From Candidatus Pacearchaeota archaeon (GTDB taxonomy: Archaea > Nanobdellota > Nanobdellia > Pacearchaeales > GW2011-AR1), in contig JAOAJC010000005.1 in NCBI GenBank assembly GCA_026414385.1, positions 1-44,270 on the forward strand: a DNA stretch of 44,270 bases, in the 5' to 3' direction. The notes under the pieces are model-generated. The model worked only from the letters and a program-made list of their open reading frames with translations, was not told the origin of the DNA and did no database searches. The stretch's first letter is position 1; each line of letters opens with the position of its first letter. This document shows positions 25,287 to 30,689 of this stretch, piece after piece. A program made the position numbers and the translations under genes.

Positions 25287-26501
25287 ATGGAAACAAAGAA
25301 ACTGTTGGTTTCTTTTGTTACAATACTGGCACTAGCAGTAATGTTGGTTCAAAGCGTAAGCGCTTTTAGCCACATTACGAGCGTTGAAGTCAATGGTGTG
25401 GAGGCACTTAGTGGTGCTGAAATAGCAGACTTTGCAGGACAGACATTGCCTGTGAGGATTGTTTTCCAAGCCTATGACGACGCAAGTGATGTCAGGATAA
25501 AAGCATGGATTTCTGGCGAGAAAGAATACGCTGTCTCAACAGACAGATTTGATGTCATTGCTGGCAGAACATACAGCAGACTCATCTCTGTAGAGCTTCC
25601 TAAGAAAATTGATCCGAGCGAGGATTTGAAGCTAATTGTTCTTGTTGAGAGCAAGAACAATGGCGTATCTGATGTAGCTGAAATAGAATTGACTGTGCAG
25701 AGAGAATCTTATGACATTGAGATTCTTGACGTCGCAATGTCTAATGAAGTTAAAGCTGGCAGCAATCTCGTAATTGATGTAGTTTTGAAAAACACTGGAA
25801 GAAAGATGGCTGAAGACAGCTTTGTCAAGGCAAGAATACCTGCATTGGGTATTGAGACAAAAGCTTATTTTGGCGATCTTTCGGCAGTAGATCAAGCAAA
25901 TCCTGACAAAGAAGACGCTGTCCAAAGAAGACTTTTCTTAAGTGTGCCTTCAAATGCGCCTGCTGGAATTTACGTAGTTGAGTTGGAAGCATACAACAGC
26001 GACTCATCTGCATTAGTTACAAAGAAAGTAGCTATAACTGGCGGGGCAGTTGAATCAAGCCAAGTTGTCAGTTCAACAAGTAGCAGAACATTTGCCGTCG
26101 GGGAAAGAGCAGGATATACATTGACATTGGTAAACACTGGAAATCAGATAAGGGTTTATGAGCTGGTTCCTGAGACACCAAGCGATTTGAAATTGAACCT
26201 TGCTGATTCAGTGGTTGCTGTACCTGCTGGTGAAAGCAAGACAGTTAGTTTTGAGGCAGTTGCTACAAAGCAAGGAAGATATGCTTTTGCAGTAAATGTC
26301 TACACTGACAATGAGCTTGTAAAGAGATACAACTTTGTTGCTATAGCAGAGGGAAGCGGAAGTGCTACCAAATACACAAACACAACTGTTTTGATAACAG
26401 TAGTGCTTGCAATAATTTTTGTAGTGCTTCTCGTCGTGTTGATAGTATTGTTAACAAGAAAACCTGAAAAGAGCGAAGAGTTCGGAGAGAGCTACTATTA
26501 A
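25287..26501 (+). CDS. Abundant-looking surface protein with Ig-like domains and C-terminal anchor
   Basis: 404 residues. A signal peptide (residues 1-26, ending VSAF) is followed by three beta-sandwich domains. The middle one begins ESYDIEILDVAMSNEVKAGS and contains the CARDB/NEW3-like NLVIDVVLKNTGRKM. The third begins after VAITGGAVESSQVVSS and contains GYTLTLVNTGNQIRVYEL. A C-terminal helix (LITVVLAIIFVVLLVVLIVLL) with a short tail anchors it in the membrane. Codon use is clearly less AT-rich than in most genes here (many GTC, GAC, AGC, GAG), like highly expressed genes. It has its own promoter and a strong terminator. A main cell-surface coat component is a fair guess. Confidence 0.75.
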   Translation: METKKLLVSFVTILALAVMLVQSVSAFSHITSVEVNGVEALSGAEIADFAGQTLPVRIVFQAYDDASDVRIKAWISGEKEYAVSTDRFDVIAGRTYSRLISVELPKKIDPSEDLKLIVLVESKNNGVSDVAEIELTVQRESYDIEILDVAMSNEVKAGSNLVIDVVLKNTGRKMAEDSFVKARIPALGIETKAYFGDLSAVDQANPDKEDAVQRRLFLSVPSNAPAGIYVVELEAYNSDSSALVTKKVAITGGAVESSQVVSSTSSRTFAVGERAGYTLTLVNTGNQIRVYELVPETPSDLKLNLADSVVAVPAGESKTVSFEAVATKQGRYAFAVNVYTDNELVKRYNFVAIAEGSGSATKYTNTTVLITVVLAIIFVVLLVVLIVLLTRKPEKSEEFGESYY

Positions 26502-26913: not shown

Positions 26914-29900
26914 ATGACTTACATAAAAAAGATAGTGATGCAAGGATTCAAGAGTTTTGCAAGAAGAACAGAAATTCCATTTGATAAAGGGATTAATGTC
27001 ATTGTTGGTCCAAACGGGAGCGGTAAAAGCAACATTTCAGACGCGTTGTGTTTTGTGTTGGGAAGGTTATCTATAAAATCATTAAGAGCTGCAAAGGCAA
27101 AAAACTTAATATTTATGGGCTCAAAGTTCATAAAACCTGCTAAAGAGGCGTGCGTTGAGATAGTTTTTGACAATTCTGACAGAACATTTTCAATTGAGAG
27201 AGACGAGATATCTATTGAGAGAAAAGTAAGAAGAGACGGGCAAAGCATTTACAAAATTAATGGCGAGACAAAAACAAGAAATGAGATTATAGAATTATTG
27301 GCGCAAGCAGGAATAGATCCTTACGGGTTTAACATCATTTTACAGGGAGAGATCCAATCAATTGTTATGGCACATCCCGAAGAGAGAAGAAAAATTATTG
27401 AGGACGTTGCAGGGATATCAATATATGAGACAAGAAAAGAAAAATCGTTGAAGGAATTGGAAAAGACAGATGAAAAATTAAAAGAAATTAATGCGGTATT
27501 AAGAGAGAGAACCGCTTATTTAAGAAATCTTGAAAGAGAGAGAGCCCAAGCATTAAAATATAAGGAATTGGAGAGTTTATTGAAAAAAATAAAAGCGTCT
27601 ATAATAAAGAAGAAAATTGACGAAAAAGAGAGAGAATTAAATTCAATATTAAAATCAATAGAGGAAAAGACTCACGAAAAAGAAAAGATAAGAGAAAAAG
27701 CCGAAAAAATAAAAAAGGAAATAGAAGCATTGGGAGAGAAGATAAATCAAATTAATAGGCACATCCAAGAAACGAGCGGCATAGAACAAGAAACTTTGCA
27801 TAATCAAATAGGTAATTTAAAAGCCGAAATTGAGGGACATAAAGTTAGAAAAGAAAATTACGAAAACAGAAAAGAAGAGATTGAGAGAAGAATTGCGAAA
27901 ATAAACGAACAGATACCAGAAATAAAAAGAGAGATAGAGGAATTAAGAGAAAAGTCGCCGCAGGTTGCAAAAAAAGCAAATGAATTGAAAAAAAAGAAAG
28001 AAGAGCTTGCTTTAATAGAAGAAGAAAGGAAAAAAGTATTAACAATAAAAAGTGAATTAAATTCAATAAAAGAAAGAATAAATGACAAGGAAAAACAAGT
28101 TGCGAAAACAAGTGCTGAAAGTGATTTAATATTAAAACAAATTGAAGAGTTATCAAAAAACCTTAGTTATAAAAATGAGGAAGAATGCTTAAAGACAATA
28201 AATTCGTTAAAAAATTTATTAAAAGAAAAGAAAAAAGAATTAGAAACCATTGAAAACGAGAGTTTAAAAAACGAAAAGCAAATTTCTGTGTTGGAATTTG
28301 ACATAAACAGAATTGAAAAAATAAAGAATGATGTCAAAGAAATTGATGTTTGTCCTTTGTGTCAGAGCAAGATAACCGAGAATCATAGAGAACATGTTGT
28401 AAGCGAATCAAATAACAAAATAAAAATTTGTGAAGAAAGAATTTATGCATTGAAAGATGAGATTGGAAGGTTAAAAACAAGAAAAAATCAGCTTATAGAA
28501 GAAATAAAAAGCAATGAAGAAAAGACGTCAAATAGCGAGATTGAGTTAATAAAACAAAAAACAATAAGAGAAAAGAAAGAACATTTAAAAAGAATTGTTG
28601 ACGAAGAAAAAGCCTTGAAAGAAGAGATAATTTCGCTTTTATTAAAAAGAAAAGAGTTAGAAAATAAGACAATCGATTTAAGTGAGATTGAGGCAAGATA
28701 CCACGCTAAAATAATGGAGATAGAGGAGATTTCTTCAAGAACAGAAGAAGATATCGACAACACTTTATTGCATAAGGAAAGAGAAATAGAACAGATGCAG
28801 CACATCATAAAAATGAGCAACAAAGACATTGAAGAAATTGAAAATAATATAAATGAAATTTCAAAAAATCTTGATAGAAAAATTGCGTTATTGGAAGAGA
28901 AAGAAGAGCAGGAGAAAAAGCTTAATGAAAAATTCAAGAAGATGTTTGAGGAGATGGATATGATGCAAAAAGAATTGCAAGAACGAAGCGTAATATTTAG
29001 TGAGACGCAAAATAATATGAGGGCAATTGACGACCAAATTAATTTTTTGAGGATAGGAAAGGCAAAAATTGACGCTGAAAAAGAGGCGCTTGGAATGGAA
29101 ATGAGCGAGTTTGTTGGAGTTGAATTAATAAAAGCAACTATTGAGACATTGCAAGAAAGATTGGCAAAAACGCAACAGGCATTAAGCGAAATAGGGACAA
29201 TAAACATGAGAGCCTTGGAGATTTATGACGAAATGAAAAAAGAATACGATTCTATACAAGAAAAAGTAAACATATTGGAAAAAGAGAAAGCGGAGATAAT
29301 GCAGGTTATTGCAGAAATTGACAGAAAAAAGAAAATTACATTTATGCGCACATTTAAGTCAATAAATGAGCTATTTACAAGGAATTTTTCAAAATTATCA
29401 ACGAAAGGTGAGGCGTTTCTTGACATTGAAAATAAAGAAAACATATTTGATGGTGGAATAAACATACTCGTAAAAAAAGCAAAAGGTAAATATTTTGATG
29501 TAACTTCTCTTTCCGGAGGGGAGAAAGTTCTGGTTGCTTTATCGTTGCTTTTTGCAATACAAGAACATAAACCATATCATTTTTACATATTTGATGAGAT
29601 TGATGCTGCGTTGGACAAGAGAAATTCGGAAAGGTTGGCTGCGTTGTTAAACCAATACATGCAATCTGGACAATATGTTGTCGTAACGCACAATGACGCA
29701 ATAATCATGAATTCAAATTTACTTTATGGAGTTACTATGCATGATGATGTTTCAAAGATATTAAGCATAAAGTTAGAAGACAAAGAAGAGATTAAAAAAT
29801 ATAATGTGCAAAATGCTGTTCAAAAAGAAACGCGTGAGGACGAAAATGAAATCGGGTTTGACGATGAATGGAATTTAAATAATGTTGGGATTAATAATAA

Positions 29901-29982
29901 CATTAACGTGGCTGAAGCAGAGAAAATAACAAATAAAATTGCAAGCAGCGTTGAAAACACCAATCTTGAAAAACGCGGCTGA
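26914..29982 (+). CDS. smc: SMC-family chromosome ATPase carrying a Rad50-type zinc hook
   Basis: 1022 residues, short for SMC (about 1150-1200). The N-terminal head is clearly SMC: QGFKSFARRTEIPF, Walker A GPNGSGKSN (residues 32-40), and the SMC-specific LQGEIQSIVMAHPEERRKII with AGISIYE. The C-terminal head has the signature LSGGEK (866-871), Walker B FYIFDEIDAALD (DE 894-895) and D-loop. Between them are two long coiled coils. Where an SMC hinge domain of about 150 residues is expected there is instead CPLCQSKITENHREHVV (CPLC at 480-483), the pattern of a Rad50 zinc hook, near the centre of the coil. No kleisin (ScpA) or Mre11 gene is nearby. The C-terminal tail after residue 940 is Asn/Glu-rich and low-complexity. 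A box tttttaaata at about 26884 is 25 bp before the ATG. Confidence 0.92.
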   Translation: MTYIKKIVMQGFKSFARRTEIPFDKGINVIVGPNGSGKSNISDALCFVLGRLSIKSLRAAKAKNLIFMGSKFIKPAKEACVEIVFDNSDRTFSIERDEISIERKVRRDGQSIYKINGETKTRNEIIELLAQAGIDPYGFNIILQGEIQSIVMAHPEERRKIIEDVAGISIYETRKEKSLKELEKTDEKLKEINAVLRERTAYLRNLERERAQALKYKELESLLKKIKASIIKKKIDEKERELNSILKSIEEKTHEKEKIREKAEKIKKEIEALGEKINQINRHIQETSGIEQETLHNQIGNLKAEIEGHKVRKENYENRKEEIERRIAKINEQIPEIKREIEELREKSPQVAKKANELKKKKEELALIEEERKKVLTIKSELNSIKERINDKEKQVAKTSAESDLILKQIEELSKNLSYKNEEECLKTINSLKNLLKEKKKELETIENESLKNEKQISVLEFDINRIEKIKNDVKEIDVCPLCQSKITENHREHVVSESNNKIKICEERIYALKDEIGRLKTRKNQLIEEIKSNEEKTSNSEIELIKQKTIREKKEHLKRIVDEEKALKEEIISLLLKRKELENKTIDLSEIEARYHAKIMEIEEISSRTEEDIDNTLLHKEREIEQMQHIIKMSNKDIEEIENNINEISKNLDRKIALLEEKEEQEKKLNEKFKKMFEEMDMMQKELQERSVIFSETQNNMRAIDDQINFLRIGKAKIDAEKEALGMEMSEFVGVELIKATIETLQERLAKTQQALSEIGTINMRALEIYDEMKKEYDSIQEKVNILEKEKAEIMQVIAEIDRKKKITFMRTFKSINELFTRNFSKLSTKGEAFLDIENKENIFDGGINILVKKAKGKYFDVTSLSGGEKVLVALSLLFAIQEHKPYHFYIFDEIDAALDKRNSERLAALLNQYMQSGQYVVVTHNDAIIMNSNLLYGVTMHDDVSKILSIKLEDKEEIKKYNVQNAVQKETREDENEIGFDDEWNLNNVGINNNINVAEAEKITNKIASSVENTNLEKRG

Positions 29983-30005: not shown

Positions 30006-30689
30006 TTAGAAGTCAAGCAAACTTGATTGTTTTTTTTCTTGGAAAATTGATTTCCAAGTTTTCCATGTTTTTCTAAAAATGCCTGAATCTTTTAATTTTT
30101 CCCCGTTCTTTTTTAAGAATTCTTGAGTTATTGGATCTGATGGATAGCCGGAACCGATATCACCATATTTTTTGTATTGTTCTTTTAGTTTTGCAACTTC
30201 GTCCTCTCTCTCAACTTTTGCGATAATTGAGGCTGCTGATGTTGAAGGATACAAGAAATCAGCTTTATGTTCAACCGTGAATTCTAAATTTTCCGGGTGT
30301 TTAATAAAACCAATTAAAGTAGAACGCCAAGCTCTCGTATTTATAGACGGACAATCAACAAAGACATGGATTTTTGATTTATTATCATTTAAAGAATTGA
30401 TTATTTCTGCCATTTTTAACGCTTCTAAAGTATTTAGATTAATCCCGGTGTTGATAGACCTGTCAATTTCTTCAGGATAGATTTTAATTGTTTTAATATT
30501 TAGGGCATTCTCTTTTATTATTTTTGAGAGTGATATTCTTGCATTGTGGGAGAGAAGTTTGGAATCTTTTACGCCTTTTTCTTTTAAGAAAATTTCTTTT
30601 TCTTTTTCTAACAAAACTCCTGCTAAAACCATCGGGCCGATTAAAGGCCCTCTGCCTGCATCGTCAATGCCTAAAACCAACATAAACAA
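30006..30689 (-). CDS. rnhB: Ribonuclease HII
   Basis: 227 residues, normal length. The enzyme cleaves the RNA strand of RNA-DNA hybrids and single ribonucleotides in DNA. The first motif reads LGIDDAGRGPLIGPMVLAG, where most family members have GIDEAGRGP. The usual Asp-Glu pair is thus Asp-Asp here. Further catalytic positions are seen in HVFVDCPSIN (Asp) and EHKADFLYPSTSAASIIAKVERE (Asp and the SAASI motif), and the substrate-recognition region IGSGYPSDPIT is present. The methionine at 30683 is an alternative start. It is convergent with smc (24-bp gap) and ends with a short basic tail QEKKQSSLLDF-type, where a PIP-box-like LLDF end could bind PCNA; this last point is a guess. Confidence 0.92.
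   Translation of the reverse strand: MFMLVLGIDDAGRGPLIGPMVLAGVLLEKEKEIFLKEKGVKDSKLLSHNARISLSKIIKENALNIKTIKIYPEEIDRSINTGINLNTLEALKMAEIINSLNDNKSKIHVFVDCPSINTRAWRSTLIGFIKHPENLEFTVEHKADFLYPSTSAASIIAKVEREDEVAKLKEQYKKYGDIGSGYPSDPITQEFLKKNGEKLKDSGIFRKTWKTWKSIFQEKKQSSLLDF

Follow-up and report, generated by a model that had tools for sequence, protein, structure and literature searches.

An intact open reading frame on the forward strand of the window (i.e., the entire stretch of 44,270 nucleotides analyzed here) encodes an SMC protein of 1022 residues that carries a zinc-hook motif at the apex of its coiled coil, and is referred to below as the hook SMC. The features of the gene and its product are as follows.

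26914..29982, forward strand: hook-SMC gene, 1022 aa, open reading frame intact
26914..27420, forward strand: N-terminal ATPase half-head, residues 1-169 (PF02463, TIGR02168/02169 and PDB matches)
27007-27030, forward strand: Walker A of the N-terminal half-head, GPNGSGKS, residues 32-39
27421..28341, forward strand: coiled coil, N-terminal arm, 307 residues from AGISIYE to the hook
28351..28401, forward strand: zinc-hook motif CPLCQSKITENHREHVV, residues 480-496, with C480 and C483 as the presumed zinc ligands
28378..29253, forward strand: coiled coil, C-terminal arm, 382 residues from the hook to LSGGEK (its coordinates overlap the end of the zinc-hook motif)
29281..29778, forward strand: C-terminal ATPase half-head (Pfam and PDB matches, motifs)
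29509-29526, forward strand: LSGGEK signature motif, residues 866-871
29581-29616, forward strand: Walker B/D-loop, FDEIDAALD, residues 893-901
29779..29979, forward strand: variable C-terminal tail of ~65 residues; the matches of relatives mostly stop at residue 954-960

The C-terminal tail is acidic and Asn-rich, and is absent or different in most relatives. Upstream of the gene lies a 404-aa Ig-like membrane protein (window positions 25287-26501) that is often conserved in Pacearchaeota, and downstream, on the opposite strand, lies RNase HII (30006-30689), often conserved beside the hook SMC of Pacearchaeota. These conserved neighbors do not suggest a partner for the hook SMC. The distance from AGISIYE to the hook is 307 residues, varying by no more than 1-2 residues in nearly every member of the window's family, and that from the hook to LSGGEK is 381-383 residues in nearly all of the family. 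An artifact of assembly or a chimeric sequence was considered and rejected, because the same layout, with constant arms and conserved neighbors, recurs in ~130 independent genomes.

The heads of the protein encoded at 26914-29982 are unambiguously those of an SMC and not of Rad50. The first-pass annotation had called both heads SMC-like from their motifs, which are present as described (LQGEIQS at residues 143-149 and AGISIYE at residues 166-172, in addition to those listed above), and the profile scores bear it out: 547.9 bits for TIGR02168 and 544.2 bits for TIGR02169, vs at most 114 bits for the Rad50 models. The NCBIfam cut-offs for SMC (567 and 729 bits, respectively) are not reached, the model match breaking off at the hinge. 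Pfam SMC_N spans residues 3-946 (E = 2.3e-53), and the top PDB matches are archaeal and bacterial SMC heads (1e-103 to 1e-66; 5xei, 1.5e-103), whereas Rad50 heads match at 1e-12 only. In a head tree in which SMC and Rad50 sequences of the class were sampled (ASRP is not in the tree), the 25 class Rad50 sequences form one clade with a support of 100 and all SMCs form the other. The heads of the hook SMC thus fall inside SMC and outside Rad50, and the opposite placement, which had been named in advance as evidence against the annotation, did not occur. When Rad50 was left out of the tree, 38 SMCs of the window's order were split from ten hinge-bearing SMCs of the class (support 100/99). Membership in Rad50 (cut-off 700 bits) is ruled out by the head scores together with the head tree, and membership in ASRP by the head score (129.8 bits against a cut-off of 300, model NF045487); the arcadin-4 model NF053563 gives 54.4 bits against a cut-off of 860.

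One further observation concerns Walker A. In one relative (L086, an ORF of 1492 aa), alignment places an insertion of ~520 aa within the SMC Walker A (GPNGSGKS/C...HN/SN), apparently a P-loop intein, and from ORF length and match start an apparent intein at the SMC P-loop may also be present in genomes G035, G047, G078, G130, G010 and G009.

The window belongs to the order Pacearchaeales (Pacearchaeota) of the class Nanobdellia, with the named relatives being Candidatus Pacearchaeota, and the order genomes seen are apparently all metagenome assemblies. Orthologs of the hook SMC were found in 130 of the 132 order genomes; hooks were read directly in the SMCs that were fetched, and the other orthologs were judged by full-length alignment to the window protein. 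The trait therefore belongs to the whole order rather than to one gene, with some relatives lacking both hinge and hook.

Canonical SMCs carry the hinge domain PF06470 at the coil apex, and no match to it was found in the hook SMC or elsewhere in its genome. Among 188 genomes drawn from the class, 136 have a PF06470 match, none of them in the window's order; the remaining 52 comprise 34 genomes of the order and 18 others. After adding 16 further order genomes, mostly from its smaller families, none of 50 order genomes has PF06470 over the cut-off, vs 136 of the 154 other class genomes. No full SMC was found in the 18 negative genomes outside the order (nine of family f13 and five more without any SMC match, and four with fragments only), so among genomes with a full SMC, hinge loss and membership in the order go together. 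In family f13 (G136, G148, G157, G164, G171, G178, G183, G189 and G194), SMC and ScpA were undetected in all nine genomes and ScpB was undetected or marginal, including in single-contig genomes, at 94-95% completeness; this family has apparently lost the whole SMC complex.

The protein is also shorter by about the expected amount. Between the head anchors, hook SMCs have ~693 residues, vs 833-902 in ten hinge SMCs of the class. The first-pass annotation had put the deficit at ~150 residues, the size of a hinge, which agrees with the measured gap of 140-209 residues; the gap equals roughly one hinge and, in most comparisons, a slight shortening of the arm as well.

What stands at the apex is a Rad50-type hook. 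In 180-aa apex fragments from 46 distinct order SMCs, with a mean column identity of 39%, the sole invariant residues are C480, P481 and C483 (C-P-x-C), and since these are the only residues unchanged among 46 divergent apexes, the motif is not due to chance. PF04423 (Rad50_zn_hook) matches residues 465-504 (E = 0.001 with the whole protein as query, 1e-4 with the apex fragment), scoring just below the curated cut-off for the hook SMC alone, and 33 of the 46 homologous apexes match it singly at E <= 0.05. When the apex profile was compared with 177,635 PDB sequences, the top two matches were 6zff (5e-9) and 1l8d (1.4e-8), both structures of the Pyrococcus furiosus Rad50 hook, and the profile alignment stays in register through the hook. 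An AlphaFold2 model of the apex (a single chain, built with the 46-apex alignment) predicts a pair of long helices with a short connecting loop at ~477-488, with a mean pLDDT of 96.4. A hinge fold at this position, the other outcome named beforehand as speaking against the annotation, is absent from the prediction, which has a helix-loop-helix hairpin instead. In a Foldseek search with the model, chains of 1l8d ranked first and second (TM 0.83 by target, rmsd 2.4-2.6), with E-values that are weak, as for a coiled-coil apex (0.004-0.013). Profile, predicted fold and conservation together uphold the initial reading of a Rad50-like CPLC hook in place of the hinge.

The single CPxC pair is the only cluster of cysteines in each chain. 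A tetrahedral zinc site of four cysteines would thus need a second chain, as in the Rad50 hook.

The origin of the hook was considered from the residues around CPxC. I/V at +7, T/S at +8, H/Y at +11 and V/I at +15 are common to the SMC hooks and the 25 class Rad50 hooks. The ungapped similarity between the two sets after CPxC is 20, vs -9.8 (sd 4.9) for a position-permuted control (500 permutations, highest 10.1), and some pairs are near-identical, e.g., CPVCKQKVGEDHK of an SMC and CPVCKQKVGEEHK of a Rad50. From this similarity we infer that the SMC hook descends from a Rad50 hook. It is less probable, but a serious possibility, that no Rad50 gene donated the hook and that a collapsed hinge converged on it instead: the signal lies in only ~20-30 residues, and hook geometry itself constrains sequence. 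The excess over the permuted control and the near-identical pairs argue against such convergence.

The partners expected of a canonical SMC are encoded in the same genome. The first-pass annotation had noted that no kleisin or Mre11 gene lies next to the hook SMC, which holds for the locus; elsewhere, however, the genome has ScpA on contig C22 (23678-24316; ORF of 301 aa, full-length Pfam match, E = 2.9e-13), ScpB on contig C34 (ORF of 204 residues), and a separate Mre11-Rad50 operon on contig C11. Mre11 thus adjoins a true Rad50, which has a CPTC hook of its own, and not the hook SMC. The search that the annotation had proposed for ScpA, ScpB, Mre11 and a second SMC found the first three, and no second full SMC was found in this genome, which is ~90% complete. 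ScpA is present in 33 of the 34 order genomes in the class draw and in 11 of the 16 added to it, and ScpB scores over the cut-off in the window's genome and nearly all relatives. In archaea, ScpA and ScpB may not interact, as the ScpB homologs tested did not bind ScpA (PMC7055376). In the window's family, ScpA frames are often of greater apparent length (~275-370 aa, vs ~225-300 aa in many relatives with a hinge SMC), which might reflect adaptation to the hook SMC.

Some members of the order have neither hinge nor hook. Eight distinct SMCs in families f4, f6 and f7 (L041, L042, L046, L047, L048, L050, L051 and L052) have about 780-810 residues and no CPxC, and between the head anchors they are ~155 residues shorter than hook SMCs. 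The AlphaFold2 model of one of these SMCs (pLDDT 89, from only 8 sequences) has a helical hairpin inserted at its tip, and a fold search of this tip against the PDB gave generic coiled-coil matches only, none of them informative. ScpA is kept in most of the genomes with hookless SMCs. On the tree, family f7 forms the sister group of all other SMCs of the order, and some f4 sequences fall within the hook SMCs. The hookless state requires three independent events on this tree, whether origins or reversals; more than one exchange of the apex thus seems to have taken place. The existence of these relatives also indicates that the apex can change further and that an SMC of this order does not strictly need the hook. 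On balance, we favor the view that the SMC apex in this order is an exchangeable module, in which the hinge was lost basally, mostly with a Rad50-derived hook in its place and in at least some lineages with shorter arms and a third, helical-hairpin apex, and ScpA was retained. If so, the DNA channel and gate function of the hinge would be dispensable for a natural SMC-kleisin complex.

Taken together, these findings make it very probable that the protein is the cell's canonical SMC by descent, with a Rad50-type zinc hook replacing the hinge, its apexes being joined by zinc and its heads bridged by ScpA. It is the only full SMC found in the genome, and most likely forms an SMC-ScpA complex dimerized through zinc. 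Each chain would fold back on itself to form the arms, and two apexes would meet in a small, tight joint without a channel, where other SMCs have the hinge, with a single zinc bound by Cys480 and Cys483 from both chains. The heads of this homodimer would be joined by ATP and bridged by the ScpA encoded elsewhere, and the whole may work as an SMC-kleisin machine for DNA looping or translocation. Zinc binding, dimerization, the complex with ScpA and a function on the chromosome are all proposed here from sequence, gene content and predicted fold. The hybrid design between SMC and Rad50 that was initially proposed stands insofar as SMC heads are combined with a Rad50-type hook; a kleisin gene elsewhere in the genome makes an SMC-kleisin complex the more natural reading than half a Rad50.

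Two other readings of the protein deserve weighing against the zinc-joined SMC-kleisin complex. Zinc hooks are common to Rad50, ASRP (coalescin, Sph) and arcadin-4 (PMC9389158), and the protein might be a divergent member of these families with a role in repair or chromosome compartments, its SMC-like heads having arisen by convergence. This is very hard to reconcile with scores far below the cut-offs of all three, with heads that lie inside SMC on the tree of SMC and Rad50 sequences, with a true Mre11-Rad50 operon in the genome, or with the coexistence of the hook SMC and ScpA, and we regard it as highly improbable. Somewhat less remote, yet still unlikely, is the possibility that CPxC is a structural or redox motif at the turn of the coiled coil and that the dimer forms through the heads, the kleisin or rod contacts of the arms. 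The eight order proteins without CPxC imply that an SMC can function there without the motif, and zinc at the apex is something we infer. In those proteins, however, arm length has also changed (~155 residues) and the predicted tip is not the same; in all long-arm forms the motif is invariant, and its flanks follow the Rad50 hook pattern.

A review of the superfamily (PMC10586767) distinguishes SMCs, with hinge, kleisin and KITE or HAWK subunits, from Rad50, with zinc hook and Mre11 and without kleisin. The hook SMC breaks this split by bringing together an SMC head, a kleisin gene and a zinc hook. It resembles the canonical prokaryotic SMC-ScpA(B) (TIGR02168/TIGR02169, COG1196) in its heads, phylogeny, long arms, ScpA and ScpB genes and single copy, and differs in lacking PF06470, in its zinc-hook apex and in having somewhat fewer residues between the heads than most class SMCs with a hinge. 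With Rad50/SbcC it shares the apex hairpin with CPxC...(I/V)T..H, for which 1l8d and 6zff are the best fold and profile matches; unlike Rad50, it has SMC heads and no adjacent Mre11, the genome having a separate Mre11-Rad50 operon, and its arms are longer than those of the genome's own Rad50 (702 aa in all). ASRP (coalescin ClsN, Sph) and arcadin-4 are likewise natural archaeal proteins of the SMC superfamily with zinc hooks (PMC9389158), but are not orthologous to SMC by NCBIfam scores, and the ASRP model has 593 positions. Many homologs of Lamassu LmuB, which is Rad50-like, also carry a hook (PMC10586767). The hinge-less SMCs of marine actinobacteria (PMC12153180) are natural SMCs without a hinge, but they are bacterial and have no CXXC hook, whereas CXXC is present and invariant in the hook SMC; they are more like the eight hookless SMCs of the order. 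Roles proposed for the hinge include DNA binding and, in recent work, selective gating in obstacle bypass (PMC12647877), so an SMC without the hinge channel offers a direct test of hinge-dependent SMC activities.

The closest designs are engineered. In the open-access journal literature, no naturally occurring canonical SMC was found to be described with a zinc hook, and the only earlier reports of a hinge-to-hook swap that we could find describe a laboratory construct. Bacillus subtilis with Smc(Zh), in which SMC heads and arms are joined by the P. furiosus Rad50 hook, grows normally on rich medium (PMC5344682), and in the reverse swap, also a laboratory construct, a Rad50 with the MukB hinge works and repairs DNA in fission yeast (PMC6969161). 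Since both swaps are functional in vivo, the design of the hook SMC is workable. The hook SMC is a natural counterpart of Smc(Zh), a swap that evolution has fixed across an archaeal order.
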